Part shown: in pieces, positions 3,496 to 36,800 of the stretch
How the letters are laid out: every line of letters starts with the position of its first letter
Position numbering within the stretch: position 1 is the stretch's first letter
Assembly: GCA_944474755.1 (NCBI GenBank)
Contig: OX104113.1
Location: forward strand, 23,564,432-23,628,431
Source of the DNA: Limnoperna fortunei
Lineage: Eukaryota; Mollusca; Bivalvia; Mytilida; Modiolidae
Direction: 5' to 3'
Length of the DNA: 64,000 bases
Position numbers and translations under genes: made by a program
Notes under the pieces: generated by a model
Databases searched by the model: none
The model's input: only the letters and a program-made list of their open reading frames with translations
Told to the model about the DNA's origin: nothing

Positions 3496-6400
3496 CCAGT
3501 GAAGACTTTAAGGGAAGATGGAAGGATGCCAATGTAATGTTTACAGATGTAGAAACCATTCAGACTCTTGACAGACACACTAATGATAATGACTCTCTTG
3601 CTTCTTTTTCAGAAACACGTAAGTTACTGTAGTGATATTACACTTTTTAGTTTTTTTTATTTAGAGGACATGTTCGGGGAGAAAAAATAAGTTGCAACTA
3701 TGAAGCTATTACATGGTCAAACAAATTTTGAAATTCAGCCAATTCTAATATTATAAAACATTTAAAAAGTCCTCAAAGTATATAAAGTGTTTTAGCAATA
3801 CAGAAATATAATAGACTTAAAACAGTCAACTTATTAAAGATTAATTGAAATCAATATTTGTATGACTGTTCTTAAAACATAAATCTACACAAATATGTTA
3901 CAAAAATTACTTCAGCCATGGCTTATGTTTTGTTACTACACACCTTTTTTTATTTAATGCACTTGGTACACAAAAAGTGTCTTTTTTTGTAATTAGTTAG
4001 AAGTTATACTTATATGTCTGCAATCTTTTTGATAATTAACTGAATTAATTCAACATTTATAAGAAAAATGTTGTATTTCAACTGTTTATTAATTTAAGTT
4101 CTGTTATGCACATGCAATACTATTATTACTGGTACTTTCTTTGAAGGAATTGTATGAGATATAATTGTTGTGTAAAATTTCCAGTTAAACAAAGTTTTAT
4201 TCTTTACACATTTATGAACTCATATTTTTTAGCTCTTCCTTCAAACAAATTTTGTTACCTTTGTACAACAATGGAAGAACATCAAAGACATATGCATCTA
4301 CACAAGGTGAGAACATCATCAGTTTTTTTTTACATTTTTATCTTTATCTTAACTAAACTATCAGGAAAAATGTGATCTTACTTTTTTAAAGAAAGTGTTA
4401 TATTTAACCATTTATTTTTACTTTTCACAACCATAAAATCCAATGTTAATTGTGAGTGTATTGTTTAAAGGTACCAAAAAGACCATCAACAGGGAAAATC
4501 AAAATCAAATACATTGCTCCAAGACCATCAACGAAAAAGAAAGAGGAGGAAGACATAAATACATCAGTTTATGACAGACTTTATAAAGTTGATGTCTATA
4601 CTGGAGAATCAGGAATTAATGCAAAGGTATGTACATGTAACATCAAAAGTATGTACATGTAACATGTAAAGGTATGTACATGTAACATGTAAAGGTATGT
4701 ACATGTAACATGTAAAGGTATGTACATGTAACATGTAAAGGTATGTACATGTAACATGTAAAGGTATGTACATGTAACATGAATGATTGTAAAGGTATGT
4801 ACATGTAATATGTAAAGGTATGTACATGTAACATCTTCTTTTAATTGAAATCAACACATAAGCCATACATGTATCATATTTAGTGAGTGTTAAAATATTG
4901 TTTTCTTAGTTTGAATAAGACTACCGGTAATAAGTTCTTACATATTACATTGTACATTTTTTGGGGAAAGTCAGGGGTGATAAAGTGTTAGAAATTTTAT
5001 GTCTCTTCTTGAGTGGATCATAGCTTACAAGTGGAAGATCACATGGGATAGCCCAAAAGCATTTTGAAATGCCTATTTCTATTTTCTTCCGTAAACGTAA
5101 CAGCTTTCACATCATGATATCCTATAGACTCTCCATTATTTAATATCTGACATCCAATTGTCATTCACAATTCTGAAAAAGGCTGCATGTATATTACATG
5201 TATACTGTCTTCTGTAGGTTCATATCACTATCAAGGGAAGCAGAGAAGAACTTCCAAAGACACAGCTGAAGAAAGGAAGAGGATCAATGAACTTTATATT
5301 TATGAGAGAGACCAAAGAAACATTTTACTTGAAGGCACCTCATCTAGGAAATCTGGAAATTGTTACTATAGAGGTAACAATAATTCAAGTACAATAATTC
5401 AGTGAAATAATAGATATTCAAAGTTACATCACACCACATCTTAAGCAGTGGATTTATAAAAATTATGTGTATCTTATAGTTGTCATAATATAAGATAAGT
5501 ATATATATAAGTGTAAGAAGGCAGTGACAGTTGCAGTTACAAAGAGAGATATTTGTCTGTTTTTTTTTCATACATTTTCAATATAGTTTGACAGAGAAGA
5601 CTGTTGCTTGGAGTATCATGTTACTGAAATTAAACTCTGATCCTCAAATATTTTAGTATAAAGAAAAAAAATGGTACACTAATGTGAGATGTGCAATGGT
5701 CAATTTTATGATGAAATTTTCATCACATGTAATTCCTAATATTGCAAAAATGAACATTCTAATATGATATACAAGAGTATTTATAAAAGTTGAACATTTG
5801 ACATTTTAGCATGATGGTTTAATGCCCACACATAACTGGTATTTAGAAAAGATAATTATAACTGATGTTAAAACAGAACAGATGTGGGAGTTTGAATGTT
5901 TTAATTGGTTGTCTCTACACATCAAAGATTACAGAATCAAAAGAGATTTGATTGGTAAACAGATAGGAAATGCCCCACGAGAAGGTAAGCAATTTTATGT
6001 TCAGGTAGACTTGAACAATGATATTATATTTTCAACAAGTGGGTATGATTTCTTGAGCAATGGAAATTTGTAAAGGTTATCAATAAAAAACATGTATGTA
6101 ACATTTGTCATGATAAAAATTAGTATACTTGCATTATGAAAATGTATATTAGTTTTTGAGACATATATTTAATAATGGATAATGTAGTAGTAATAACTCA
6201 TGAGGATTACTGACTGTGTAGTACTCATATACACATGGGTGAGCCTTTATATTCAAATAAAATCATGTCAAATTATTGGTTTTCCTTGATCAAAATCCAA
6301 TCACACTGTAAATTTATACATGTCTTCTTGTTAGCTCCATGAAAAACATGAATGTTTGTGCATTTATTCTTGTTAAATCCATGTAAAGCAGTTAGCATAC

Positions 6401-9400: not shown

Positions 9401-12400
9401 AAGTGATCAGTAGTAGATGACAAACTACTTTAACCTTTGGTCCACCTCAGCCCCCTATTAACATATAAACTACTATATTTTTTCTCATAGCATGATATGC
9501 TTGAGATGTTGTCTTTTGATGTATTGCATCTTCAGTGTGGAAAAAAAGAAAATGCAAAACAATTTTTTTTTTATGTGCATTGAATTGTTTAAAATTTGTT
9601 CATTAAGAACTAAACTATTATTACAATTAATTTACCATATTTTGTGGACTATTGGTCTACTTGACATTGTTTCAATAAGGTAACAATGAGATATTCATTC
9701 ATTTACAGTCAAAAAAGTCTTGACCTATACTGGCTATAGAAAAACATGGTGTGAAGTGAATAAAATGTTTCCGCACATATACATGGATTTGACAAAAATA
9801 TAAATTGTAGTAATTGATATATATACTGTAGTGATTAATGGATTTCTACCATTTTAATATATTTTTATATAAGGTGATAATTCATCTGCGTGATGACCCT
9901 AAACAGAAGTACTACTTTATTTACAATGGATGGATTGGAAAAGATATCGGAGAAGGTGTATTATACAGGGATATCCCAGCAAAGAAACATGTAGCAAAAG
10001 AAACCTCTCATGGTAACTATGTAAACAAACAACATATTCTGCTTCAGATATAAAACCCTAAAGCTTAAGCCATAACAAAATTGTAACTGTAGATTATAAT
10101 TTTAATGAATACTTCATTTGTATCAAATTCTGAAGTAGTACTTATTTTTTTGTAAGATTAATAATAAGAAAATATAAACCATGACTAATTCTTAAGCAAC
10201 TTTTGTACTAAATTTAATTTTTGGCCTTGAAGACTTACTTATCATGTTATTGTCATTCCAGTACATGTTGTCAAATACTTTGAGTGTAATTCATGTAAAT
10301 AAGTCTAGGCTATTTCAACAGCAGATTGTTCTCTGTCAATTTGCCCATGTAACTTTTATCTACCTAAGTCTGATTGCGGGTTCGAGTCTTACTGCGGGCA
10401 CGGTGCACTCGACTCCAATCCTAATTGACAAGGAATGTCAGTTTTCCTACTGAAGGTAGTATGGGTTTTCTCTGGGTACTCCAACTTCCTCCCTCAATAA
10501 AAACTGGATACTATGATAGCAAAAAATTGCTGAAATTAGCGTTAAACAACATTCAAACAAACAAAATCTACCTTAGTCTAGCCACTCTTGGTTCCTCATC
10601 ATGGTTAATCAGGATTTATAACCAATGTCTTGAATCCACATGGTTCCACTCTTGGTTCCTCATCATGGTTAATCAGGAATTATAACCAATGTCTTCACAT
10701 GGTTCCTCATCATAGTTAACCAGGATTTATAACCAATGTCTTGGATCCACATGGTTCCACTCTTGGTTCCTCATTATGGTTAATCAGGAATTATAACCAA
10801 TGTCTTGGATCCACATGATCCTCATCATGGTTAACTAGGAATTTTAACCAATGTCTTGAATCCACATGGTTCCTCATCATGGTTAACCAGGAATTATAAC
10901 CAATGTCTTAGATCCACATGGTTCCTCATCATGGTTAACCAGTAATTATAACCAATGTCTTAGATCCACATGGTACCCATCATGGTTAATCAGGAATTAT
11001 AACCAATGTCTTGGATCCACATGGTTCCTCATCATGGTTAACCAGAAATTATAACTAATGCCTTAGATCCACATGGTTCCTCATCATGATTAACCAGGAA
11101 TTATAACCAATGCCTTAGATCCACATGGTTCCTCGTCATGGTTAACCAGCAATTATAACCATTTTCTTTGATCCACATGGTTCCTCATCATGGTTAACCA
11201 GGAATTATAACCAATGTGCTAGATCCACATGGTTCCTCATCATGGTTAACCAGGAATTATAACCATTGTCTTAGAACTACATGGTTCCTCATCATGGTTA
11301 ACCAGTAATTATAACCAGTGCTTTAGATCAACATGGTTCTTCATCATGGTTAACCAGGAATTATAACCAATGTCTTGGATCCACATGGTTCCTCATCATC
11401 TAAGAAATTATAACCAATGCACTAGATACACATTCACTTAGTGTTGTGATTAGCCTGAATTACAACTCCTTAATCCAAAAGATGGTGTTATTTCTGATAA
11501 ATAGCTTTAATATAACCAAGACATGCTACCAGTAACTGCTAATTGCTTCTGTTAAGTTTTAGAACAAGGGACCAGTTAGATATGTGCTTCCTAACAAATA
11601 GTAACACATTGCTGCTGTTAAGTTTAAAAACAAGGGACCAGTTAGATACATACTTAGCGACAAATATTACGAGGATGACAACAGCCTTAGCATCTTATTG
11701 TCTATAGATTAGATAAATCTAAATATACATGCTATAATACAAATATGTGAATTAAATTACAGGTGGTGCTATTGCTAAAGGTACTAATAATTTCTTTATC
11801 ATTATTAACATTCAAAGCATGCTGTGTAATTCGTGGTGTGGTAGAATTGTTGTTTTGACTAATATTAACTGTGTTTACTTCTAAGTTGATCACTATAGTA
11901 TATACATATTTATTTATTGAATACAACTAACCAAATTTTATGGTAATAGTTTCAGCAAACCCAGCATACTTTTCATATTACATACCAAAACTATTCTTAA
12001 ATTTATTTTTTTTTATACTGGCTCAGTTTGTGAAAAAAATTTTAAAAGCAGTTTAAGTTTTAACCTGAACAACATTCATAGAGATTTCTTTTCATTTGCA
12101 TTTTTACATCTGAATATTGATCAATATCTGAAGTTACCTCTACTAACTAAACAGTAATTGAAGTACACTTATAAGTTAAACATAAATTAACCTTACTCAT
12201 GCTACTTTACACGTTAAAAATAATTTGATTTAAATCACTAACAAACACATGGTGATGCAGTGATTTAGCTAGCGCTCGCCACTTTCGCAATTGGCGAATC
12301 CTTTTTAAAAATGACGAAAATATTTTGAACGTAATTCGCCACTTCCATTTTCAAACTTCGAAATTTTCATCGTCAAAATCGGCACAGGTAAATCCAAATA

Positions 12401-15400
12401 TCTGACCTAAGGTACATGTTTATGACCCAAGGCAATCAAAGTAATTATGTAAGAGATAGGCCACCTGATATTATTTGATAATTAATCACTTATTTACTGT
12501 GTACACACCGTCACACGCGATCGAGCATAACCAGTTGGATGACAACTCGGCCGATCTTATTGTGGTCCCACGTCGCGTTGTTGACCATTAAAGGAGAAGC
12601 TGAAGTCGCTCTGTCATTTAAAAAAATGTCTCCTTTTAATTTTATTGCCATTCTCGTCAGAATCGTCATTTTTTTGGTCACAGCCTCTGTTTACCATGTT
12701 ACGCGCCATTTGTTAACTCTGGTTCCGGCGTGATTTTACTTTGCACATAAAGCGTAGGATAAAATACTACTGGTAACCAGTCAGAGAAACAAAAAAACAT
12801 AATAATACCGATAGGTTTTCGGAGCGGATATGAATTCAGTGCCGGAGATTGCAAAATACGATGCCAATTAAAAACGACTATTGCAAAAATTTAAATATAA
12901 ACAAAAATGAATATTTTGGCAAACACTGTTAAAGTTTTTTTTATTTAAATCTGTTTAAATATATGTTCTATGGCAATATTACATTGAATATATAATATAT
13001 GTTATAAAATAGTGCCAGAAAATATTAAATATTGATTGATGTTTATCGCATTAATTAATTAATTAATTAATTAATTAATTAATTAATTAATTAATTAATG
13101 ATCTTGCATACATTTAGACATATAAAAATATACACACATATTAGATCTTAAAATTAGTCGCACGCAAAAGTGACTAATGCTTAAAAAATCCTAGCTAAAA
13201 CCCTGTGATGGTTGATTTCATATAAAGCTAGCACATTAGTAGACATTGAATAGGTTTTAGGAATTATTGCTGACATTTCATTTACCTGTGTTTCTTGAAG
13301 CATCTTAACAAATAAAAAAATTGTTTTATTGTTCAATTTAAATATGGGTTGCCTTCTGTTGCTGTTATAAAGCTTTGTTTTTATGTGGTCTTCCTCTACA
13401 ATTGTGCTAATTTTGTGCAAAATAGAAGTTTTCCTTAAGAACAAAATTTAATATTATACTTTTGTATGTTACATGTATTTGATTGATTTTAAATAGAACT
13501 TCCTTAGTACCTACATTTCTGTTCACATTTTGCTGGGACCATACTCAAACGGTTGCTAGTGCTGGACCCACAGCTGCTCGCATGGTAGATAAAGGGTTGT
13601 CAGACCATAGTGGTAACATATTTATTGAGTACCATGTTTCTTGCACAGAACAACCCTATTTGTAGATCTCAAAAAGGAGTAGGCTCATTGTAGCCACTAC
13701 AAAATTCTTTTCCCTACCCAATAGACCATATCTTCCCAGTGGCAGTCAAATTTTCTTCAATTTTATTAGAATTTTATTGTTATTAAATATGTTCTAATTC
13801 TGAAAATCATTATAAATTTTGCTTACTGGACATTAAGCAAACATTCAATGAATCAGTTTGTACATTGTGACAGTCTGTTTGTGCCTTTTTTTTGGCTTTT
13901 ACAGGAACATGTAGTAGTAAGCAATTTTTGTGATAACATTTTCTCGTTTTTTACATAATTTTTTAGAAAATGTAGAGCACATTTTCCATTTTGTTTTTGT
14001 TTATTTAATTCCAATATTGTCCTTTTTATTTCATAATATACATCCCTCCTGGTATAAAGTGTGTTTACATATATGATAATGTGTTATCTTTTGTCATCAT
14101 GTTGCGTCCTTGATCTGTTGCCCGTCAGTTACACATTTTAAAACAATTTTCTCATTTGAAACCACTTGGTCAGTTTTTTTTTCAAACATGGCCACAATTA
14201 TCTTTATGGTGCCTTGTTAAAAATTTGGTCTGAGGTGTTGATCCATGGACAAACATAGCCACTGTTTAACAAAAAATAGTTGTCTAGCCTAGCTCCAGTA
14301 ACTTTTTGTGTTGCTTCTCAGTATAAATTGTTAATTCACCTATCCTTCTTGCATCCTTTTTTGTCCTGACAGTTAATATAGGGTCAAAGTCTAGTGGTCT
14401 TGCAGTTAAGATTGTAGCTTTTATAGTGCTTGAACATTTATGATGTTTATTTGGACAAGATATCTAGTATTGTGTACTAAACATGACTCTGGAATAATGG
14501 TTAGTGAAGCTGCAGATCTATTTATGGTTCATTTCCTAGTACTATTTAGTTTTGTTCAATCTTTCTACATTGTTGTTCTGTTTGAACTTTGATTATTCTT
14601 ATACAGTTTCTGTTATTAATGAGTTCAGATGTGTTGATGTTATTTAGATTTTATTTTTATATTTTGTTTTTGGTATAACTGACTCAAAGTATAATTTTAG
14701 TCATGTGTGATTTATATACAGACAGTTTTATACTTTCTTTTTCATATATTTTGTTTTTGGTATAAATACCATTTTGGTTGATTTTAAAAGGGGACGCTGT
14801 AGAGTACTTAACATCAAACTAACTATCTCTCTCTAATACAAAATAACCCATATGCATTGAGAAACGTTTTAGCTGGTAATCTTTTTATCCCCAAACCTAA
14901 AACTGAATTTTACAAACAGTCATTTATGTATTCAGAATCTACAGTTTGGAATGAATTGCCACTTGTTTTAAACACTGTAAATACACAACTTTTCAAGTAT
15001 GGTGTCAAAAAATATCTGACTCAAAGTATAATTTTAGTCATGTGTGATTTATATACAAACAGTTGTATACTTTCTTTTTCACTTTGAACTTTTTTTGTAA
15101 CATTGTTTTATTTTTAATTCATGCATGAGGGCCTCAGGGAAGATAAGTAACGCTAATTGTGTAACCTTCTTTGAAAAAAATTATTATTATTATTATTATT
15201 ACTAATTAATAATTATAATGTATTATTTTTTGAATGGCCTACAAATGTTAAATATTTTAAAATTTGAATGACAGAACAATAAGTAAATGAAATATTAAAT
15301 TTTAAAATCAATACTGTAAATCTATATTTTAGGAGAAATGACAAAATACATAGTTTATGTGAAGACAGGAGACAAGAGGTATGCTGGTACTGATGCTGAT

Positions 15401-18400
15401 GTATTTATACAAATTTGTGGAGAAACGAAAATGACAAAAAAGAAGAAATTAGATGATGAAAAAAACAATTTTGAGAGAGGTCAGCTTGATGTGTTCCAGG
15501 TAGGAATAAAAGTAGGAGTTGTGATAAATTATAGGACCAGGATGTAAAACAAAAACTAACAAATGTACACATATCAATAGAAAACAGAAACAAGAAATAG
15601 TTGCTCAATTATCTTTGATTTAAATATGTTTTGTCCTATTCTTTTTAAGTTTTGAAATGTTTTTATTTTTTATTCAGTATGAAGATATTGATGTTGGGCC
15701 AATAAAAAATATAGTGATTGGACATGATAACTCTGGTCCTGGTGCTGGTTGGTACCTTGAGGAGGTAAGTAGTGATTAGACATGATAACTTTGGTCCTGG
15801 TTGGTACCTTGAGGAGGTAAGTAGTGATTGGACATGATAACTCTGGTCCTGGTTGGTACCTTGAGGAGGTAAGTAGTGATTGGACATGATAACTCTGGTC
15901 CTGGTGCTGGTTGGTACCTTGAGGAGGTAAGTAGTGTTTAGACATGATAACTCTGGTCCTGGTGCTGGTTGGTACCTTGAGAAGGTAAGTAGTGATTGGA
16001 CATGATAACTCTGGTCCTGGTGCTGGTTGGTACCTTGAGAAGGTAAGTAGTGATTGGACATGATAACTTTGGTCCTGGTTGGTACCTTGAGGAGGTAAGT
16101 AGTGATTGGACATGATAACTTTGGTCCTGGTGCTGGTTGGTACCTTGAGGAGGTAAGTAGTGTTTAGACATGATAACTCTGGTCCTGGTGCTGGTTGGTA
16201 CCTTGAGGAGGTAAGTAGTGATTGGACATGATAACTCTTGTCCTGGTGCTGGTTGGTACCTTGAGGAGGTAAGTAGTGATTGGACATGATAACTTTGGTC
16301 CTGGTTGGTACATGGAGGAGGTAAGTAGTGTTTGGACATGACTCTAGTCCTGGTGCTGGTTGGTACCTTGAGGAGGTAAGTAGTGATTGGACATGATAAC
16401 TCTGGTCCTGGTGCTGGTTGGTACCTTGAGGAGGTAAGTAGTGATTGGACATGATAACTCTGGTCCTGGTGCTGGTTGGTACCTTGAGGAGGTAAGTAGT
16501 GATTGGACATGATGACTCTGGTCCTGGTGCTGGTTGGTACCTTGAGTTGAGGAGGTAAGTAGTGATTGGACATGATAACTCTAGTCCTGGTGCTGGTTGG
16601 TACCTTGAGGAGGTAAGTAGTGTTTAGACATGATAACTCTGGTCCTGGTGCTGGTTGGTACCTTGAGGAGGTAAGTAGTGATTGGACATGATAACTCTGG
16701 TCCTGGTTCTGGTTGGTACCTTGAGAAGGTAAGTAGTGATTGGACATGATAACTTTGGTCCTGGTTGGTACATGGAGGAGGTAAGTAGTGTTTGGACATG
16801 ATAACTCTGGTCCTGGTGCTGGTTGGTACCTTGAGGAGGTAAGTAGTGATTGGACATGATAACTCTTGTCCTGGTGCTGGTTGGTACCTTGAGGAGGTAA
16901 GTAGTGATTGGACATGATAACTTTGGTCCTGGTTGGTACATGGAGGAGGTAAGTAGTGTTTGGACATGATAACTTTGGTCCTGGTGCTGGTTGGTACCTT
17001 GAGGAGGTAAGTAGTGATTGGACATGATAACTCTGGTCCTGGTGCTGGTTGGTACATGGAGGAGGTAAGTAGTGATTGGACATGATAACTCTGGTCCTGG
17101 TGCTGGTTGGTACCTTGAGAAGGTAAGTAGTGATTAGACATGATAACTTTGGTCCTGGTTGGTACATGGAGGAGGTAAGTAGTGTTTGGACATGATAACT
17201 CTGGTCCTGGTGCTGGTTGGTACCTTGAGGAGGTAAGTAGTGATTGGACATGATAACTTTGGTCCTGGTTGGTACCTTGAGGAGGTAAGTAGTGTTTAGA
17301 CATGATAACTCTGGTCCTGGTGCTGGTTGGTACCTTGAGGAGGTAAGTAGTGATTGGACATGATAACTCTTGTCCTGGTGCTGGTTGGTACCTTGAGAAG
17401 GTAAGTAGTGATTGGACATGATAACTCTGGTCCTGGTGCTGGTTGGTACCTTGAGAAGGTAAGTAGTGATTGGACATGATAACTTTGGTCCTGGTTGGTA
17501 CATGGAGGAGGTAAGTAGTGTTTGGACATGATAACTCTGGTCCTGGTGCTGGTTGGTACCTTGAGGAGGTAAGTAGTGATTGGACATGATAACTCTTGTC
17601 CTGGTGCTGGTTGGTACCTTGAGGAGGTAAGTAGTGATTGGACATGATAACTTTGGTCCTGGTTGGTACATGGAGGAGGTAAGTAGTGTTTGGACATGAC
17701 TCTAGTCCTGGTGCTGGTTGGTACCTTGAGGAGGTAAGTAGTGATTGGACATGATAACTCTGGTCCTGGTGCTGGTTGGTACCTTGAGGAGGTAAGTAGT
17801 GATTGGACATGATAACTCTGGTCCTGGTGCTGGTTGGTACCTTGAGGAGGTAAGTAGTGATTGGACATGATAACTCTGGTCCTGGTGCTGGTTGGTACCT
17901 TGAGGAGGTAAGTAGTGATTGGACATGATAACTCTTGTCCTGGTTGGTACCTTGAGGAGGTAAGTAGTGATTGGACATGATAACTCTGGTCCTGGTGCTG
18001 GTTGGTACCTTGAGGAGGTAAGTAGTGATTGGACATGATAACTCTGGTCCTGGTGCTGGTTGGTACCTTGAGGAGGTAAGTAGTGATTGGACATGATAAC
18101 TCTGGTCCTGGTGCTGGTTGGTACCTTGAGGAGGTAAGTAGTGATTGGACATGATAACTCTGGTCCTGGTGCTGGTTGGTACCTTGAGGAGGTAAGTAGT
18201 GATTGGACATGATAACTCTTGTCCTGGTTCTGGTTGGTACCTTGAGGAGGTAAGTAGTGATTGGACATGATAACTCTGGTCCTGGTTCTGGTTGGTACCT
18301 TGAGGAGGTAAGTGGTGATTGGACATGATAACTCTGGTCCTGGTGCTGGTTGGTACCTTGAGGAGGTAAGTAGTGATTGGACATGATAACTCTGGTCCTG

Positions 18401-21400
18401 GTGCTGGTTGGTACCTTGAGGAGGTAAGTGGTGATTGGACATGATAACTTTGGTCCTGGTCCTGGTTGGTACCTTGAGGAGGTAAGTAGTGATTGGACAT
18501 GATAACTTTGGTCCTGGTTGGTACATGGAGGAGGTAAGTAGTGTTTGGACATGACTCTAGTCCTGGTGCTGGTTGGTACCTTGAGGAGGTAAGTAGTGAT
18601 TGGACATGATAACTCTGGTCCTGGTGCTGGTTGGTACCTTGAGGAGGTAAGTAGTGATTGGACATGATAACTCTGGTCCTGGTGCCTGTTGGTACCTTGA
18701 GGAGGTAAGTAGTGATTGGACATGATAACTCTGGTCCTGGTGCTGGTTGGTACCTTGAGGAGGTAAGTAGTGATTGGACATGATAACTCTGGTCCTGGTG
18801 CTGGTTGGTACCTTGAGGAGGTAAGTAGTGATTGGACATGATAACTCTTGTCCTGGTTCTGGTTGGTACCTTGAGGAGGTAAGTAGTGATTGGACATGAT
18901 AACTCTGGTCCTGGTTCTGGTTGGTACCTTGAGGAGGTAAGTGGTGATTGGACATGATAACTCTGGTCCTGGTGCTGGTTGGTACCTTGAGGAGGTAAGT
19001 AGTGATTGGACATGATAACTCTGGTCCTGGTGCTGGTTGGTACCTTGAGGAGGTAAGTGGTGATTGGACATGATAACTTTGGTCCTGGTCCTGGTTGGTA
19101 CCTTGAGGAGGTAAGTAGTGATTGGACATGATAACTTTGGTCCTGGTTGGTACATGGAGGAGGTAAGTAGTGTTTGGACATGACTCTAGTCCTGGTGCTG
19201 GTTGGTACCTTGAGGAGGTAAGTAGTGATTGGACATGATAACTCTGGTCCTGGTGCTGGTTGGTACCTTGAGGAGGTAAGTAGTGATTGGACATGATAAC
19301 TCTGGTCCTGGTGCTGGTTGGTACCTTGAGGAGGTAAGTAGTGATTGGACATGATAACTCTTGTCCTGGTGCTGGTTGGTACCTTGAGGAGGTAAGTAGT
19401 GATTGGACATGATAACTCTGGTTCTGGTTGGTACCTTGAGGAGGTAAGTAGTGATTGGACATGATAACTCTGGTCCTGGTGCTGGTTGGTACCTTGAGGA
19501 GGTAAGTAGTGATTGGACATGATAACTCTGGTCCTGGTGCTGGTTGGTACCTTGAGGAGGTAAGTGGTGATTGGACATGATAACTTTGGTCCTGGTCCTG
19601 GTTGGTACCTTGAGGAGGTAAGTAGTGATTGGACATGATAACTTTGGTCCTGGTCCTGGTTGGTACCTTGAGGAGGTAAGTAGTGATTAGACATGATAAC
19701 TCTTGTCCTGGTGCTGGTTGGTACCTTGAGGAGGTAAGTGGTGATTGGACATGATAACTTTGGTCCTGGTCCTGGTTGGTACCTTGAGGAGGTAAGTAGT
19801 GATTGGACATGATAACTTTGGTCCTGGTCCTGGTTGGTACCTTGAGGAGGTAAGTAGTGATTAGACATGATAACTCTGGTCCTGGTGCTGGTTGGTACCT
19901 TGAGGAGGTAAGTAGTGATTAGACATGATAACTCTGGTCCTGGTGCTGGTTGGTACATGGAGGAGGTAAGTAGTGATTGAACATGATAACTCTCGTCCTG
20001 GTGCTGGTTGGTACCTTGAGGAGGTAAGTAGTGATTGGACATGATAACTCTCGTCCTGGTCCTGGTGCTGGTTGGTACCTTGAGGAGGTAAGTAGTGATT
20101 GGACATGATAACTCTTGTCCTGGTGCTGGTTGGTACATTGAGGAGGTAAGTGGTGATTGGACATGATAACTTTGGTCCTGGTTGGTACCTTGAGGAGGTA
20201 AGTAGTGTTTAGACATGATAACTCTGGTCCTGGTGCTGGTTGGTACCTTGAGGAGGTAAGTAGTGATTAGACATGATAACTTTGGTCCTGGTTGGTACCT
20301 TGAGGAGGTAAGTAGTGATTGGACATGATAACTCTGGTCCTGGTGCTGGTTGGTACCTTGAGGAGGTAAGTAGTGATTGGACATGATAACTCTTGTCCTG
20401 GTGCTGGTTGGTACATTGAGGAGGTAAGTGGTGATTGGACATGATAACTTTGGTCCTGGTTCGTACCTTGAGGAGGTAAGTAGTGTTTAGACATGATAAC
20501 TCTGGTCCTGGTGCTGGTTGGTACCTTGAGGAGGTAAGTAGTGTTTAGACATGATAACTCTGGTCCTGGTGCTGGTTGGTACCTTGAGGAGGTAAGTAGT
20601 GATTGGACATGATAACTTTGGTCCTGGTTGGTACCTTGAGGAGGTAAGTAGTGTTTAGACATGATAACTCTGGTCCTGGTGCTGGTTGGTACATTGAGGA
20701 GGTAAGTGGTGATTGGACATGATAACTCTGGTCCTGGTCCTGGTTGGTACCTTGAGGAGGTAAGTAGTGATTGGACATGATAACTTTGGTCCTGGTTGGT
20801 ACCTTGAGGAGGTAAGTAGTGTTTAGACATGATAACTCTGGTCCTGGTGCTGGTTGGTACATTGAGGAGGTAAGTGGTGATTGGACATGATAACTCTGGT
20901 CCTGGTGCTGGTTGGTACATGGAGGAGGTAAGTAGTGATTGGACATGATAACTCTGGTCCTGGTGCTGGTTGGTACATTGAGGAGGTAAGTGGTGATTGG
21001 ACATGATAACTCTGGTCCTGGTGCTGGTTGGTACCTTGAGGAGGTAAGTGGTGATTGGACATGATAACTCTAGTCCTGGTGCTGGTTGGTACCTTGAGGA
21101 GGTAAGTAGTGATTGGACATGATAACTCTGGTCCTGGTGCTGGTTGGTACCTTGAGGAGGTAAGTAGTGATTGGACATGATAACTCTGGTCCTGGTGCTG
21201 GTTGGTACATTGAGGAGGTAAGTGGTGATTGGACATGACTCTAGTCCTGGTGCTGGTTGGTACATTGAGGAGGTAAGTAGTGATTGGACATGACAACCCA
21301 GGTCCTGGTTCTGATTGGTACCTTGAGGAAGTAAGTAGTGATTTGACATGACAACACTTGTCCTGGTTCTGATTGGTACCTTGAGGAAGTAAGTAGTGAT

Positions 21401-23955
21401 TTGACATGACAACACTTGTCCTGGTTCTGATTGGTACCTTAAATAAGTAAGTAGTGATTGGACATGATAACTGTGGTCCTGGTTGGTACCTTGAGGAGGT
21501 AAGTAGTGATTGGACATGATAACTGTGGTCCTGGTTGGTACATGGAGGAGGTAAGTAGTGATTGGACATGATAACTCTGGTCCTGGTTGGTACCTTGAGG
21601 AGGTAAGTAGTGTTTAGACATGATAACTCTGGTCCTGGTGCTGGTTGGTACCTTGAGGAGGTAAGTAGTGATTGGACATGACTCTGGTCCTGGTGCTGGT
21701 TGGTACCTTGAGGAGGTAAGTAGTGATTGGACATGACTCTAGTCGTGGTGCTGGTTGGTACCTTGAGGAGGTAAGTAGTGTTTGGACATGACTCTAGTCC
21801 TGGTGCTGGTTGCTACCTTGAGGAGGTAAGTAGTGATTGGACATGACTCTGGTCCTGGTGCTGGTTGGTACCTTGAGGAGGTAAGTGGTGATTGGACATG
21901 ATAACTCTGGTCCTGGTTGGTACCTTGAGGAGGTAAGTAGTGTTTAGACATGATAACTTTGGTCCTGGTTGGTACCTTGAGGAGGTAAGTAGTGTTTGGA
22001 CATGATAACTGTGGTCCTGGTGCTGGTTGGTACCTTGAGGAGGTAAGTAGTGATTGGACATGATAACTTTGGTCCTGGTTGGTACCTTGAGGAGGTAAGT
22101 AGTGTTTAGACATGATAACTCTGGTCCTGGTGCTGGTTGGTACCTTGAGGAGGTAAGTAGTGATTGGACATGATAACTCTGGTCCTGGTGCTGGTTGGTA
22201 CATTGAGGAGGTAAGTGGTGATTGGACATGATAACTCTGGTCCTGGTGCTGGTTGGTACCTTGAGGAGGTAAGTAGTGATTGGACATGATAACTCTGGTC
22301 CTGGTGCTGGTTGGTACCTTGAGGAGGTAAGTAGTGATTGGACATGATAACTCTTGTCCTGGTGCTGGTTGCTACCTTGAGGAGGTAAGTAGTGATTGGA
22401 CATGATAACTCTGGTCCTGGTTGGTACATTGAGGAGGTAAGTAGTGATTGGACATGATAACTCTGGTCCTGGTGCTGGTTGGTACCTTGAGGAGGTAAGT
22501 AGTGATTGGACATGATAACTTTGGTCCTGGTTGGTACCTTGAGGAGGTAAGTAGTGTTTAGACATGATAACTCTGGTCCTGGTGCTGGTTGGTACCTTGA
22601 GGAGGTAAGTAGTGATTGGACATGATAACTCTTGTCCTGGTGCTGGTTGGTACCTTGAGGAGGTAAGTAGTGATTGGACATGATAACTCTGGTCCTGGTG
22701 CTGGTTGGTACCTTGAGGAGGTAAGTAGTGTTTAGACATGATAACTCTGGTCCTGGTGCTGGTTGGTACCTTGAGGAGGTAAGTAGTGATTGGACATGAT
22801 AACTCTGGTCCTGGTGCTGGTTGGTACATTGAGGAGGTAAGTGGTGATTGGACATGATAACTCTGGTCCTGGTGCTGGTTGGTACCTTGAGGAGGTAAGT
22901 AGTGATTGGACATGATAACTCTGGTCCTGGTGCTGGTTGGTACCTTGAGGAGGTAAGTAGTGTTTAGACATGATAACTCTGGTCCTGGTGCTGGTTGGTA
23001 AATTGAGGAGGTAAGTAGTGATTGGACATGTCAACCCAGGTCCTGGTTCTGGTTGGTATCTTAAGAAGGTTAGTAAAAATGCTTGCATGTCATATTTATC
23101 ACCATTTGCTAATATAGACTAGAGTCCAGTTGAGCCATTGCCATTGCTTTGCATCCTCTATCATAACTTTTCCAAAAATATTGTTCTCTGATACTGATAA
23201 GTCAATTTATATGTGAATCTATTATAGTTTGTGTAGCAGAGAGTAGAATATAACAGGGGTCAACACATATTTTTGGCATATCTCTCAAAAAATATGGATC
23301 AATACATCATTATCTATCATTTATACTATTGATCCAAATCCAGAGATATTGCCCTTGCACAGCTTTTGGTCTTTTTTATTATGTTTTTATTAGTTAAGTA
23401 ACTTGCTTGTATTCTACATATTTTTCTTCCACTATTTTTCAGGTAAAAATACGAAGATACCTTCAGAAGAAAGAAATTGTGGACTATCTGAAGAAAACAA
23501 AGAAAGAGGCAGACAAAATAAAACTTAAGAAGAAGCAAGGGAAAGGAAAGGAAGATGAATTAGATGAACTTGAAGCTAGGATGAATAAATTACTGAAATC
23601 AGATCATAGAAATGTTTCAGATGAAGAACTTTCTGATGAAAATGATGAGGTGCATGGAAAGAAAGGAAAAAAGGAGAAAGACAACAAAAAATCACAGAAA
23701 AATAAGAAATTGGCAAAGAAAGAGAAAGATTCATCTGAGAGCAGCAGTGACGCGAGTGACAGTGAGGATGATCACAAATCTAAAACTAAGGACAAAAGAA
23801 ATCTACGCATGAAATCTGGAGATATTGTCCTGAAAGTTCCATTATATGAAGAATGTGTTTTTCCATGTAATAGATGGTTAGCTGTTGATGAAGATGATGG
23901 TTTGTGTACTAGGGAGCTAAATGTCAAAGATAAAACCATGTATTACAAAAATTAA
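3496..23955 (+). CDS. LOXHD1: LOXHD1-like PLAT-domain protein (3' part of gene)
   Basis: Eleven exons, each with AG/GT borders and agreeing phases: 3496-3618, 4233-4306, 4471-4626, 5218-5373, 5810-5984, 6894-7089, 8927-8975, 9874-10012, 15333-15499, 15678-15764, 23443-23955 (stop). They encode about 610 residues. The first exon enters in phase 1, so the start codon is missing. In order: an acidic segment, a zinc-finger-like segment (FCYLCTTMEEHQRHMHLHK), a basic linker, then three PLAT/LH2 beta-sandwich domains. Domains 2 and 3 carry the family motifs GTDANISMTIFG and GTDADVFIQICG, then GHDNSGPGAGWYLE and CNRWLAVDEDDG. A long Lys/Glu/Ser-rich insert sits before the last PLAT strand, as in one internal PLAT of human LOXHD1. 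LOXHD1 acts at hair-cell stereocilia membranes in vertebrates; its role here is unknown. The protein stops after this PLAT, far shorter than the 15-PLAT vertebrate form. Confidence 0.85.
4619..4840 (+). repeat. 23-bp satellite built on a 5' splice site
   Basis: About nine tandem copies of GTATGTACATGTAACATGTAAAG (23 letters, split here as GTATGTACATGTAACATGT plus AAAG) start exactly at the donor of the exon ending at 4626. Each copy recreates the exon-end/donor context AAAG|GTATGT. One copy near 4780 carries an insert (GAATGATT). The array lies in the intron between the exons ending at 4626 and starting at 5218. Minus-strand open frames of 63-85 residues across it are only translations of the repeat. 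Confidence 0.9.
6590..6822 (-). mobile_element. tRNA-derived SINE copy, diverged, minus strand
   Basis: The reverse complement reads from a tRNA-like head (GGCCTAGGTGGCCGGGTGG, near 6800-6818) through a body with GACTCCAATTTTAATTG to the tail CTGAAAGTGGCATAAG. It matches the two young copies at 49731 and 55689 but is clearly mutated. It lies in the intron before the exon at 6894. Confidence 0.75.
7090..8562 (+). other. Intron of the LOXHD1-like gene, no recognised element
   Basis: AT-rich intron sequence between the exons ending at 7089 and starting at 8927. The short open frames here lack domains and splice context. I see nothing else that can be named in it. Confidence 0.5.
8563..8718. mobile_element. 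Short palindromic MITE-like hairpin
   Basis: The left segment ACATACATTAAGTGTAGGTA with CATCATGTCTCGACAGTT is mirrored by AACTGTCTCGACATGATACA with GTACCTACACAAAATGTATG on the right. The arms are about 60-65 bp around a loop of roughly 40 bp. It is intronic in the LOXHD1-like gene. No coding capacity and no clear target-site duplication. Confidence 0.7.
9236..9456 (-). mobile_element. tRNA-derived SINE copy, old, minus strand
   Basis: The reverse complement shares the order of blocks with the copies at 49731 and 55689: a degraded tRNA-like head near 9440, the GACAAG/CAATCTTAATTG block, the CTTCCTC block, then GCTGAAAAATTGCTGAAAGT near the other end. Many substitutions indicate age. It lies in the intron before the exon at 9874. 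Confidence 0.7.
10371..10562 (+). mobile_element. tRNA-derived SINE fragment lacking the head
   Basis: It begins at the B-box-like GATTGCGGGTTCGAGTC and continues through GACTCCAATCCTAATTGAC, the CCTCAATAAAAACTGGA block and a tail ending in an AAAC-rich run. The A-box half is absent. It sits next to the 52-bp satellite in the same intron. Confidence 0.75.
10586..11433 (+). repeat. 52-bp satellite in LOXHD1-like intron
   Basis: About 16 imperfect tandem copies of a 52-bp unit containing GGTTCCTCATCATGGTTAAC and AATTATAACCAATGTCTTAG. Some copies are short (for example near 10690 and 10810) or carry internal deletions. Unlike the two donor-derived arrays in this gene, the unit contains no exon border. 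A separate partial duplication sharing AACAAGGGACCAGTTAGATA lies just downstream (about 11535-11650). Confidence 0.9.
12240..12760. repeat. CGCC-motif dispersed sequence, possible repeat
   Basis: A locally GC-richer block within AT-rich intron. It contains CGCCACTTTCGCAATTGGCGA and related words resembling the pieces at 450-520 and 1287-1360. A 64-residue open frame at 12539-12733 has hydrophobic stretches but no known domain. Its repeat nature is inferred from those shared words only. Confidence 0.35.
13046..13099. repeat. (TTAA)n microsatellite
   Basis: Uninterrupted tetranucleotide repeat of ATTA/TTAA, about 50 bp, in the large intron between the exons ending at 10012 and starting at 15333. 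Confidence 0.95.
14830..15087 (+). pseudogene. Non-LTR retrotransposon ORF2 C-terminal fragment
   Basis: The open frame at about 14839-15087 reads NLFIPKPKTEFYKQSFMYSE followed by VWNELPLVLN. This is the pattern seen just after the RT domain in many animal non-LTR elements (a Pro-Lys-Pro stretch, a Ser/Tyr-rich strand, then W-N-x-L-P). RT motifs are missing, so it is a 5'-truncated remnant. A duplicated segment starting TGACTCAAAGTATAATTTTA is at 14681 and 15019, so its 3' end was partly duplicated. It is intronic and not part of the host protein. Confidence 0.55.
15180..15203. repeat. (TTA)n microsatellite
   Basis: Short trinucleotide run directly after the LINE fragment. It may be that element's variable 3' tail. 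Confidence 0.85.
15714..23073 (+). repeat. 58-bp satellite made of exon end plus splice donor
   Basis: Roughly 130 tandem units. The unit is the last 51 bp of the LOXHD1-like exon ending at 15764 joined to the first 7 bp of its intron (GTAAGTA). Every unit therefore carries a PLAT coding segment (GHDNSGPGAGWYLEE) and the donor GAGGAG|GTAAGT. Two length classes recur: 58 bp, and 52 bp lacking one 6-bp step in the GGTCCTGGTGCTGG part. Larger blocks also repeat; for example the starts at about 18526 and 19155 are the same, about 629 bp apart. A more diverged patch lies at 21290-21450. No unit after the first has a good upstream acceptor. Reading through the first donor gives a stop within seven codons. 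Confidence 0.95.
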
Positions 23956-23963
23956 ATTACGCA

Positions 23964-23969
23964 AATAAA
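23964..23969 (+). promoter_or_regulatory. Poly(A) signal of LOXHD1-like gene
   Basis: A canonical AATAAA lies 9 bp after the stop codon at 23953-23955. A second A-rich candidate (AATAAAAGTT) is near 24230. The close signal supports a true transcript end rather than a chance stop. Confidence 0.5.
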
Positions 23970-24552
23970 GTGTTATATAAAATTCTTTTAGGATAATTTA
24001 TCATGACAAGCATCAGTTTCATTCACTCATACATATTTTATTGAAGGTTTTAAAATATATTGATCTAAGTTTATAAAGAACTGTAGATTTTTACATTAGA
24101 TATTGTAGTATATTGTATTTGTTCATTATGTGTACTTTGTGTGTACATATATTTTGTAACACAAACAAATTCTCAGGAAATTTGATCAACATTCTACTTT
24201 TCAAACTGAGAAAATTCCAGTGTACTAATAAAAGTTATTTTAAATAATAACAATTACATATGTGGATTTATCTTTATTTATTAAAAGATTTATAACATAA
24301 GACTGTTTCTGTATTGTTATAAAAAATTCTGTATAGATTAGTATACACAATTACTAAGAAGTAAAATTATAGATTTGTTACTCAGTTTACTCCTAATTTG
24401 TCTAGTCTTGTTCTTTATGTGTGTTATTATCAAAAGTTTTATATCTATTAAGGCTAAATTACAGTGAATATTTCTGGATACCGCTTTATATTGTGCTCAG
24501 GACCTTGGTGCCTTTTCACTAGCTAATACCCACTTTATTCCTAGTGAAGATG

Positions 24553-24855
24553 AGTTCTGGTTATGACCAATGGTTTGAATTCTGGGTATGACTAATTGTT
24601 TGAATTCTGGTTATGACCAATGGTTTGAATTCTGGTTATGATCAATGGTTTGAATTCTGGTTATGATCAATGGTTTGAATTCTGGGTATGACCAATTGTT
24701 TGAATTCTGGTTATGACCAATGGTTTGAATTCTGGTTATGATCAATGGTTTGAATTCTGGTTATGATCAATGGTTTGAATTCTGGGTATGACCAATTGTT
24801 TGAATTCTGGTTATGACCAATGGTTTGAATTCTGGTTATGATCAATGGTTTGCTC
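24553..24855 (+). repeat. 25-bp satellite with 100-bp higher-order period
   Basis: About 12 copies of a 25-bp unit built of TGGTTATGACCAA and TGGTTTGAATTC. Variants GGGTATGACCAATTG, GGTTATGACCAATGG, and twice GGTTATGATCAATGG recur in the same order, giving a four-unit (100-bp) higher-order repeat seen about three times. It lies downstream of the LOXHD1-like gene. Confidence 0.9.
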
Positions 24856-33305: not shown

Positions 33306-33770
33306 AACAAATCACTCTAACAAATCGGAAAGAAATCAGTCATTTGTAAGTGATTTGAAAGTGATGCAAATTCACATGCAAATTAGTTATCAAATCACTC
33401 TAACAAATTACTAACAAATTACTCTGAACCTGGAAAATATCATCAATAAATTACTAGCAAATCACTTTCAAATTACAAGCAGATCACTGTTAAATTACTT
33501 TCAAATCACTAGCAAATCACTATCAAATTACTACCAAATCACTAGCAAATCACTGTCAAATTACTACCAAATCACTGTCAAATTACTACCAAATCACTGT
33601 CAAATTACTACCAAATCACTAACAAATTACTACCAAATCACTAACAAATTACTACCAAATCACTATCAAATTTCTACCAAATCACTAGCAAATCACTGTC
33701 AAATTACTACCAAATCATTTTAAACCAGGGAATATAATCACTAGCAAATCAGGCCAGCAACAAATTACTT
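33306..33770. repeat. Left subterminal 11-bp repeat array
   Basis: Tandem units of 11 bp alternate between AAATCACTRNC and AAATTACTACC (R = A/G). Regularity is best at 33480-33710. A few units near the outer end are in the opposite orientation (GTAAGTGATTTG, AAGTGATG). The period is close to one DNA helical turn. It lies just inside the left inverted end. Confidence 0.9.
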
Positions 33771-33892: not shown

Positions 33893-36800
33893 TTAATTTT
33901 GTAATGTTTTGTTTAGTCTTTTCACTGTCATTTTCGACGATGACATTTTTTCTAGCCATGCTCTGTTGAAACTTGATTGGTCCATGTTGAGTTTGTGTTC
34001 TGCATAATCTGCAATAACAAAAAAAATGGTTAAATACACAAAACTAGTCAAATCTATCAATAAATAGTGTGAATCTGGTTTTTTATAATACTATACAATA
34101 TCTTCTATTTTTTCATTAATTGTTTTAATCAAATAATTGATCATAATATTATTTACCTATTAGCTAAAATTAAGTTATTCATCATAATTTGTTCCCTCCA
34201 GTTTGCCCAACAATGAGATTTTTAGAAATAGAAACAGAACACTAGCAGATGAAAAAAAAAACATCAAAGTTTTTACAACCATAAATGTGATTAGATTTTG
34301 GCTTTCATAAAAGATATACAGAAACAAAATGTTTTGATGATAATTTGGCAATTTTTTTACTTTATTTATAGTTATAAGACTGAAATGCAGTAATCCTGTA
34401 TTTACTTCTTAAGGCTTTAAAGACCAATGTGTCCTTAAAAAGTTGTGTTCCTCCATTGACAGCCAAATCCCATGGTTCATAAAACCCATCTATTAGTCTT
34501 TTTATTATGTCTGATCCAGGTTTGTCTTTTTGAAGGTTTTTTCTGCTTTTTCTGGATACTGTTGCCAATATACTGTGAAGCCAGATGCTGTTTACTGCAA
34601 TCTTGGCTCCAGGTGCCAGCAAAGAGTATCCACTTTTTAACTGCGATTCTTCTGCCACTTCATACTGCAAAAAAATAATTTACCGGTATTAGAAAATAAA
34701 TGTATTTAAAAAAAACTTAGTTTTAATTTCATTATAATTCAGATGATAAACACAATAAATATTTATGACAAATAATACTGCTACAAAGACATCCAGTATA
34801 GACCAAACCTGGTGCACTGCCTATTTCATGAACATATAAATGTATAACTTTTATTGAAACAAGGGATATTCAGTTGCAAAAAACAGCAAAAATAAGTAAG
34901 ATCTTAAAGTAGAAAACTATTAAATTGTTAAGTTTTGCATTACATTTACTTATAACATAAACACATATAAACTCATACAGAACAAGCAGTGATTGCTATT
35001 TTGTTAAGTATTACATGTAAGAATTTCCTTCAACAGATAAAAGATTCATGTAGTATAATTTCTAGTGTTGAATATAATTAGGTTGTAACTTACATAATCT
35101 GCTAATTCAACAGCTGGCCGAGTTTTGGGCTTGTGTTTTTTCAGTCGCTGCTTATGACCTTCCACCTCCTCTGGAGTATATGTCATGGATTGGTCTGCAA
35201 AAATATCAAAGGTTTTAACACATGTATTGCCTATTAAAGTAGTTTTCATAATTCTTGGAACACAACTCAAGAATTCTTAGTATTAACACCAATTTATATA
35301 CCAGTAATTTAAGTAAATGTAAATATTAATATAATTTTAATAACCAACTTTTAATACAAACTTTCTTGACTGCTCTGTCATAGTTGTGTATTTGAAGCAC
35401 GCATGTGTCATGTGTTGAATAAATCAAACCTTGTCTGAAAAGTTCACAATAATTTAAACTTGAGACAAGTGTCTACAATATGAATTTACTATAAAGCTGC
35501 AAATTTATACTAAATTTCCACTGATGGATCCATAAATGATACCGATCTTGACATTTACCTTCTAGTTTCTTACGTAGCATAACATTCTCATGTTCTAAAG
35601 TTCTGAGGTGGTGTTTAAGATCAGATATCTCAGTATCTTTTGCAATGCAGTGACAACATTCATCCCCGTATGAATTTATTATATTAAGGGACTGGCTCAC
35701 TGCTGCAGACAGACTGCTACTATTAGTACATGTAGTAAAACTATTGGCTACTTGGGATCTATTGGAATGATGTGAAAAGAAAGGGTCTTCATTTGCATTT
35801 AAAAATGTGCTGTTAAGGGACATGCCTGCATTAAATTCCTGGGAAGAAGAGGGCAACAACATTGAAGATTCCAACACAGAATGTCTATTTGGGTTGATAG
35901 ATTGAGAGGGTAGAGCGTGCAACTGGGGACTAGAAGACAAGTCTAAATGGTTAACTTGGGGGAAATGGTTATGAACTGGTAGGGCAGTATTTGGAATGTG
36001 TAAAGCTGAGGTAAAAGGTGCCATACTAGAAACTGGGAAGACTGATGATACTATATTAGGTGACTGAACAGGTGCCATGCTTGGAGCTGGGGGAACAGGT
36101 ACCGCGCTAGAAACTGAGGGAACAGGTGCCATGCTAGAAACTGAGGGAACAGATGCCATGCTAGAAACTGAGGGAACAGGTGCCATGCTAGGAACTGGGG
36201 GAACAGGTGCCATGCTAGAAACTGAGGGAACAGATGCCATGCTAGAAACTGAGAGAACAGGTGCCATGCTAGAAACTGAGGGAACAGGTGCCATGCTAGG
36301 AACCGGGGGAACAGGTGCCGTGCTTGAAGCTGGGGGAACAGGTACCAAGCCAGGAACTAAGGGAACAGGTGCCGAGCTCGGAGCTGGGAGAACAGGTACC
36401 ATGCTAGAAACTGAGGGAACAGGTACCATTCTTGTAGCTGGGGGAACAGGTGCTGTGCTTGAAGCTGGGGGAACTGGTACCATGCTAGAAAATGGGTAAA
36501 CAGGTACCATGCTCGCAGATGGGAGAACAGGTACCGTGCTAGAAACTGATGGAACTGGGGGAACAGGTGCCATGCTTGGAGCTGTGGATGATGAATTGGG
36601 TGGAACTCTACTCACACATGCATGATTAGTTGACTTTGAGTAAAGTTTTGCAGCCATATTCTGTGCAGCTGCTACTAAAGCCTCCTTTTTCTTCTTTTTT
36701 TCAACAGCAAGAGCTACAATAAATGTCTAATAATTTGACTGTTTCGCAATACATTGTGATATTTTTTTTATAATAATTACTGTTGTATATATTTGTGTAT

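Follow-up and report, generated by a model that had tools for sequence, protein, structure and literature searches.

The closest described counterparts of the array reported here are human minisatellites that include a 5′ splice site (these and the other published systems are cited from the accessible portions of the respective papers). The 31-bp VNTR of CBS lies at the exon 13–intron 13 boundary (c.1444_1467+7), its unit consisting of 24 exonic and 7 intronic bases, and occurs in 16–21 copies (PMC2630376). In the available part of a review, more copies go with lower CBS activity (PMC5188458), an indication that arrays of this kind are not necessarily silent; a further paper, as far as its accessible text goes, merely lists this VNTR (PMC1395315). 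The 25-bp VNTR in intron 18 of ABCA7 includes the exon 18 donor and extends over 298 to 10,678 bp, or up to ~427 copies. Among ABCA7 transcripts, use of a cryptic exon 18 acceptor (14 ± 6%) and retention of one unit (2 ± 1%; isoform order as the paper names them) are independent of VNTR length; with increasing length, expression drops and exon 19 skipping increases (PMC5954066). Internal tandem repeats at human exon–intron boundaries in segmental duplications have been reported with 27 intron changes (PMC2812944), and close to the 5′ end of a fish MSTN-2 intron there are one or two 150-bp repeats, an anatomy that differs from the one described below (PMC3045353). The literature searched, with subscription journals mostly outside it, yielded neither a survey of donor-seeded minisatellites nor a mollusc example.

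Here we describe a 58-bp minisatellite at the start of an intron in Limnoperna fortunei, hereafter the main array (Table 1; the window is the whole stretch of 64,000 nucleotides analysed). It is a true, large and recently grown example of the known donor-spanning kind, for its repeat unit includes the exon’s own 5′ splice site and its first unit is contiguous with a genuine protein-coding exon, a PLAT exon, a homologue aligning over the join. As in CBS, an exon tail is combined with the first 7 intron bases (24+7 in CBS, 51+7 here) and unit variants differ by single substitutions, but 16–21 copies of 31 bp stand against ~130 of 58 bp, and CBS is polymorphic whereas the main array is known from one haploid assembly (PMC2630376). 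The ABCA7 VNTR likewise starts at an exon’s donor, with GT opening each unit and a second donor that shifts the frame; it is, however, intronic from the donor on, without an exon tail, its next exon can be skipped, and it is known from RNA and the main array from DNA (PMC5954066). The repeats in segmental duplications are also minisatellites that lie over an exon–intron boundary and alter gene structure, but they concern human paralogues, comprise ~4 copies of ~30 bp and yield new introns via cryptic sites, and the accessible text singles out no donor-seeded class (PMC2812944). The AGGT model of intron gain shares a tandem duplication spanning a splice boundary, but places the new intron between the copies, whereas the acceptor of the intron studied here lies outside the array (PMC4974935). 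Such intron gain was rejected for the main array, as the protein-preserving join goes to the acceptor at 23443, 367 bp past the array.

Table 1. Features of the main and second donor arrays and of their host gene, in window coordinates (a slash marks the exon–intron junction)
Feature	Position	Strand	Basis
Second donor array in the LOXHD1-like gene, 23-bp unit, 8 exact AAG/GTATGT	4619–4834	+	Tandem Repeats Finder; first donor at exon end 4626
Upstream PLAT-domain exon (…GQLDVFQ), donor GTAGGA	15333–15499	+	read from sequence; tblastn, homology
PLAT exon ending …GPGAGWYLEE, contains the first unit copy	15678–15764	+	unbroken join alignment; PLAT 5.4e-14
Main tandem array, 58-bp unit, ~130 copies, 126 exact AG/GTAAGT	15712–23075	+	Tandem Repeats Finder, motif count, copy alignment
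First donor GAG/GTAAGT, gives the full reading frame	15765–15770	+	joined translation
Stop codon reached from every later donor (…LEEVSSD*)	15777–15779	+	joined translation, 126 of 127 donors
Higher-order duplication, 627 identical bp, distance 629 bp (18059 and 18688)	18059–19314	+	self-comparison
Last, most divergent copy, AAG/GTTAGT	23018–23075	+	read from sequence; predicted U1 pairing −8.3 vs −11.8 to −12.3 kcal/mol
Next exon, VKIRRYLQ… to stop codon; apparent last coding exon	23443–23955	+	read from sequence, homology

Anatomy of the arrays and of their host gene

Tandem Repeats Finder reports the main array with a period of 58 and a score of 11843. The 126 exact AGGTAAGT donors are preceded by GAG in 120 cases and by AAG in 6, the final copy has GTTAGT in place of GTAAGT, and in the copy-by-copy alignment A replaces G before GT in 3 of 130 copies. 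The 127 segments measure 58 bp (89), 52 bp (26) or 55 bp (9), with lengths of 63, 64 and 226 bp seen once each. Elsewhere in the window, AGGTAAGT occurs once on the + strand and not at all on the − strand. The first-pass annotation had described a 5′ splice site tandemly expanded at a PLAT exon, and the copy and donor counts, together with the Pfam match of the exon at the array start, bear this out. The unit had been given as 51 exonic plus 7 intronic bp; its makeup of exon tail and intron head holds, but the split is not unique, 53+5 fitting equally well because TA flanks the join on either side. A search of the genome (1,335 Mb) with positions 15600–15900 returned at least 57 matches, all at the array’s own place on C3; with 57 of 57 listed matches there and the unit absent elsewhere among them, a dispersed satellite or transposon was discarded as its source.

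Protein homology identifies the host as a LOXHD1-like PLAT gene: translated, its last three exons match LOXHD1-like proteins, one from Mya arenaria among them, and the best organism-named match is to the oyster Saccostrea cucullata, with 60 of 103 residues identical and the alignment unbroken at GWYLEE/VKIRRY. Because of this continuity and the PLAT match, the joining of the donor after 15764 to 23443 is taken as the conserved one. Matches that cross this join elsewhere in the genome are distant PLAT paralogues of 34–48% identity, some in one open frame, and no spliced retrocopy that would prove the junction was present among the 70 own-genome matches listed. The stop codon at 23953–23955 is followed, on reading, by AATAAA at 23964, and the exon from 23443 is apparently the final one, so that exon skipping of the ABCA7 type would not apply here. 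LOXHD1-like stretches occupy the window from ~5.8 to 15.8 kb and, judging by the exon of a second donor array, the gene appears to begin no later than 4.4 kb.

The first donor of this second array closes an exon ending …YKVDVYTGESGINAK at 4626, from which an open frame starting VHITIKG at ~5218 would continue, as judged by reading. Pfam assigned no family to this exon (one chance-level match), which we call PLAT from the residues YKVDVYTG and the LOXHD1-like stretches downstream. Clusters of strong donors (at least 3, gaps below 120 bp) are confined in the window to the main and second arrays on the + strand, with none on the − strand. The main array does not stand alone: it shares its gene with a second donor array and its anatomy with arrays at many other exons. 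Other minisatellites of the window, at 10582–11399 (52 bp), 24551–24852 (25 bp), 33448–33717 (22 bp) and 36066–36555 (27 bp), lack a strong-donor cluster.

Donor choice and growth of the main array

We consider it probable that the minisatellite arose when a 5′ splice site was duplicated in tandem and that mainly its first donor is used, the other copies being intronic passengers. This account builds on what is directly established here, namely the anatomy, the protein across the first-donor join, the coding outcomes, the recent block duplication and the recurrence at exons. The founding event would have duplicated ~51 bp from the end of a LOXHD1-like PLAT exon together with ~7 bp from the start of its intron, perhaps helped by the 2-bp microhomology, and the gene would have stayed intact because the extra copy fell on the intron side of the working donor. 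Slippage or unequal exchange, including that of blocks of hundreds of bp, could then have brought the array to ~130 copies. The first donor would mainly be spliced to the 23443 acceptor and presumably wins in the cell, and because it does, the minisatellite would be tolerated and the remaining copies would have little effect.

In the translations that join each donor to 23443, the full conserved frame comes from donor 1, and each of the other 126 of 127 donors appends VSSD*, a stop after four codons. Two earlier claims, that normal protein comes from the first donor only and that later donors lead to a stop within seven codons, are thus confirmed, the former by the oyster alignment as well as by the joined translations. 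At least 42 U1 genes of the genome exceed the Rfam cut-off; in the three that were read, the U1 5′ end is the canonical ATACTTACCTG, which the first donor matches. One stretch (G000:C15:26253085–26371903) holds 40 equal-score U1 snRNA genes on both strands, many of them 757 or 766 bp apart. Judged from sequence, the first donor very probably does the splicing in the cell. As later donors are predicted to pair with the U1 5′ end no less well than the first one (Table 1 gives the range for the 126 exact copies), leakage to them is likely.

What leaked transcripts might do bears on an alternative that we consider unlikely, namely that the array regulates the gene according to its length: long alleles would slow or derail intron processing and lower the amount of full-length protein, or divert transcripts to a VSSD* poison or truncated product. 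A single common stop is reached whichever later donor is used, 37 nt upstream of the junction with donor 2 and 89 nt upstream with donor 3. By the vertebrate 50-nt rule for decay of transcripts with early stops, only donor 2 products would escape. The human arrays also speak for an effect of length, lower expression and more exon skipping accompanying longer VNTRs in ABCA7 (PMC5954066) and lower activity accompanying more copies in CBS (PMC5188458). The first-pass suggestion that copy number tunes U1 binding, transcript speed or splicing is a conjecture of the same kind. In ABCA7, the closest human example with RNA data, donor choice is, however, independent of length (PMC5954066), and the inner donors are without clear constraint both in the main array, where 2 of 8 donor-core sites are variable compared to 24 of 50 other sites, and in a pool of 11 arrays. 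In this pool the donor core does vary less (odds ratio 0.46, p 0.02), but the arrays were picked by motif and two of them (L042, L039) go in the opposite direction. A lower variation of the donor core counts against passengers, which would not need it.

A positive role of the inner copies is very improbable, be it as U1 landing sites that would, for example, protect the long intron from early polyadenylation or as points of recursive splicing. Each copy carries AG/GTAAGT with strong predicted U1 pairing, but the intron without the array is ~0.4 kb long and leaves little to guard. Recursive splice sites need a pyrimidine tract directly before the AG, and reading of the unit TTGGTACCTTGAGGAG found none in that position.

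Besides the duplication in Table 1, the main array contains exact blocks of 347 bp at a distance of 1358 bp and of 271 bp at 1484 bp, so block duplication has been recent. The first copy is of the most frequent type of unit (27 of 127). An artefactual copy number, produced by the assembly, is hardly credible: the 627-bp exact block at a distance of 629 bp is of the type that assemblers duplicate or collapse, but the 49 unit types follow one another in irregular order, the 7.4-kb array on its 112-Mb contig could be spanned by long reads, and comparable arrays occur at many other places of the genome.

Donor arrays across the genome

Searches for three AGGTAAGT at a spacing of 35–65 returned 4025 + 2487 rows, and 557 + 990 rows for the reversed motif, the single motifs occurring 51,448 and 64,255 times in the genome, respectively. 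As a few huge arrays weigh heavily on row counts, distinct places were counted by eye, with rows within a few kb merged. On C1 (115.4 Mb), this gave 5 places for AGGATAGT, 7 for TTTGCAGG, 11 for AGGTGAGT, at least 15 for AGCTAAGT (up to 101.7 Mb; 9 belong to one family) and at least 9 for AGGTAAGT, counted within the first 6.84 Mb. At an exact period of 48 in the whole genome, AGGTAAGT had 12 places among the rows listed (102 rows in all) and the reversed control TGAATGGA had 4 (26 rows), whereas a second control, GAGATAGT, had 3 places among the rows listed but 122 rows in all, more than the 102 of the donor motif. The difference between 12 and 4 places (two-sided p 0.077 if exposure is taken as equal and 0.021 per occurrence) amounts to a modest excess of donor arrays over the reversed motif. 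A strong hot-spot claim was dropped, as 9 arrays lie in the first 6.84 Mb of C1, yet just 2 of the 12 period-48 places are on C1 as a whole (115 Mb); so either the start of C1 is array-rich or the sample was lucky, and donors can be called minisatellite hot spots only tentatively.

An exon end was called where the DNA before the first donor showed, by eye, an acceptor and a reading frame that stays open up to this donor; arrays of AGGTAAGT and AGGTGAGT were read in this way, and those of AGGATAGT and AGCTAAGT were left out. Leaving the main array aside, 19 of 30 resolved consensus-donor arrays from three motif-picked samples start at an apparent exon end. If the genome is taken to have 200,000 introns, 0.75% of randomly placed 50-bp units would include a donor; for arrays selected by a donor word the expectation is higher. 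The C1 sample contributed 5 of 9 (L022, L023, L024, L026 and L027, the last with ~43 exonic bases in its unit; none seen in L019, L020, L021 and L025). The 12 period-48 places, which have L021 in common with the C1 sample, contributed 7 (L038, L040, L042, L046, L047, L048 and L044/L049); L045 is possible and was not counted, L041 begins ~65 bp past an exon, and L021, L039 and L043 have no visible exon end. Among the 11 AGGTGAGT places on C1, 7 of the 10 resolved ones are at an exon end (L051, L052, L053, L054, L056, L057 and L059) and L050, L055 and L058 are not, L060 lying outside the resolved set. Acceptor-motif arrays are beside an exon in 1 of 7 cases (L065), and the pooled comparison with 19 of 30 gives a Fisher p of 0.033; taken singly, p is 0.15 for AGGTAAGT at period 48 (7 of 12) and 0.050 for AGGTGAGT (7 of 10).

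Nine of the 19 exon-end arrays have some protein support, firm in five (STK11, 8e-14; IFT172, 4.6e-12, with an alignment that reaches the final residue before the donor; F-box, 1.2e-14; LRR_4, 2.8e-6; PDZ, 2.1e-6) and weak or below the cut-off in four (cytidine deaminase, 0.0044 over 20 residues; Neuralized, 6e-4; LRR, 0.0018; RNA polymerase I A49, 0.0021). For the other ten, the call is based on frame and acceptor alone; Pfam gave chance-level matches at most for L026, L042, L023, L051, L053, L054, L056, L057 and L038 (L024 was left out of this search). L023 (G000:C1:3657500–3667400) is a 73-bp donor array with at least 58 exact donors that follows an exon which would encode a membrane-protein-like stretch, MYKIRPRRTRPQGMLML…. 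The 66-bp array L065 (G000:C1:89810500–89812000), whose units end in TTTGCAG, lies just before an apparent exon and is possibly a mirror case at a 3′ splice site.

Donor strength at the array edges

In all ten arrays of which both ends are seen, the first donor is of consensus type. By predicted U1 pairing, the last donor is weaker in 8 of the 10, clearly so in the main array, L022, L024, L027, L040 and L048 and slightly in L046 and L026, and equal to the first in L023 and L047, the last copy of each array having been chosen by eye and L048 fading through decayed copies. The decay of unused copies accounts for the weaker last donors. The last copy, however, reads GTAAAC in L022 (IFT172) and GTATAT in L040 (an LRR gene), whereas GTAAGT stands in almost every copy before it, as GTAA or GTA is followed almost at once by exon bases. 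In these two arrays the duplication itself thus seems to have made the consensus donor; as arrays were picked for consensus donors, this is a lead and not a rate, and a strengthening of weak donors by duplication is proposed tentatively. An extension that we hold to be rather doubtful is that minisatellites arise repeatedly at 5′ splice sites in this genome, partly since a founding duplication can upgrade a weak donor to consensus, whereupon selection for the stronger first donor would fix it and the array would grow freely in the intron.

What is new here is the recurrence of such arrays across one genome, with a hint that the strong donor multiplied in them can be a product of the duplication itself. 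The two human arrays of this anatomy, described singly, bear on enzyme activity and disease risk. Many arrays in one genome are natural replicates on which to ask which of many equal donors wins, what effect length has and whether tandem duplications are drawn to 5′ splice sites. An upgrading of weak donors by duplication, if real, would provide a simple route to stronger splice signals and larger introns.
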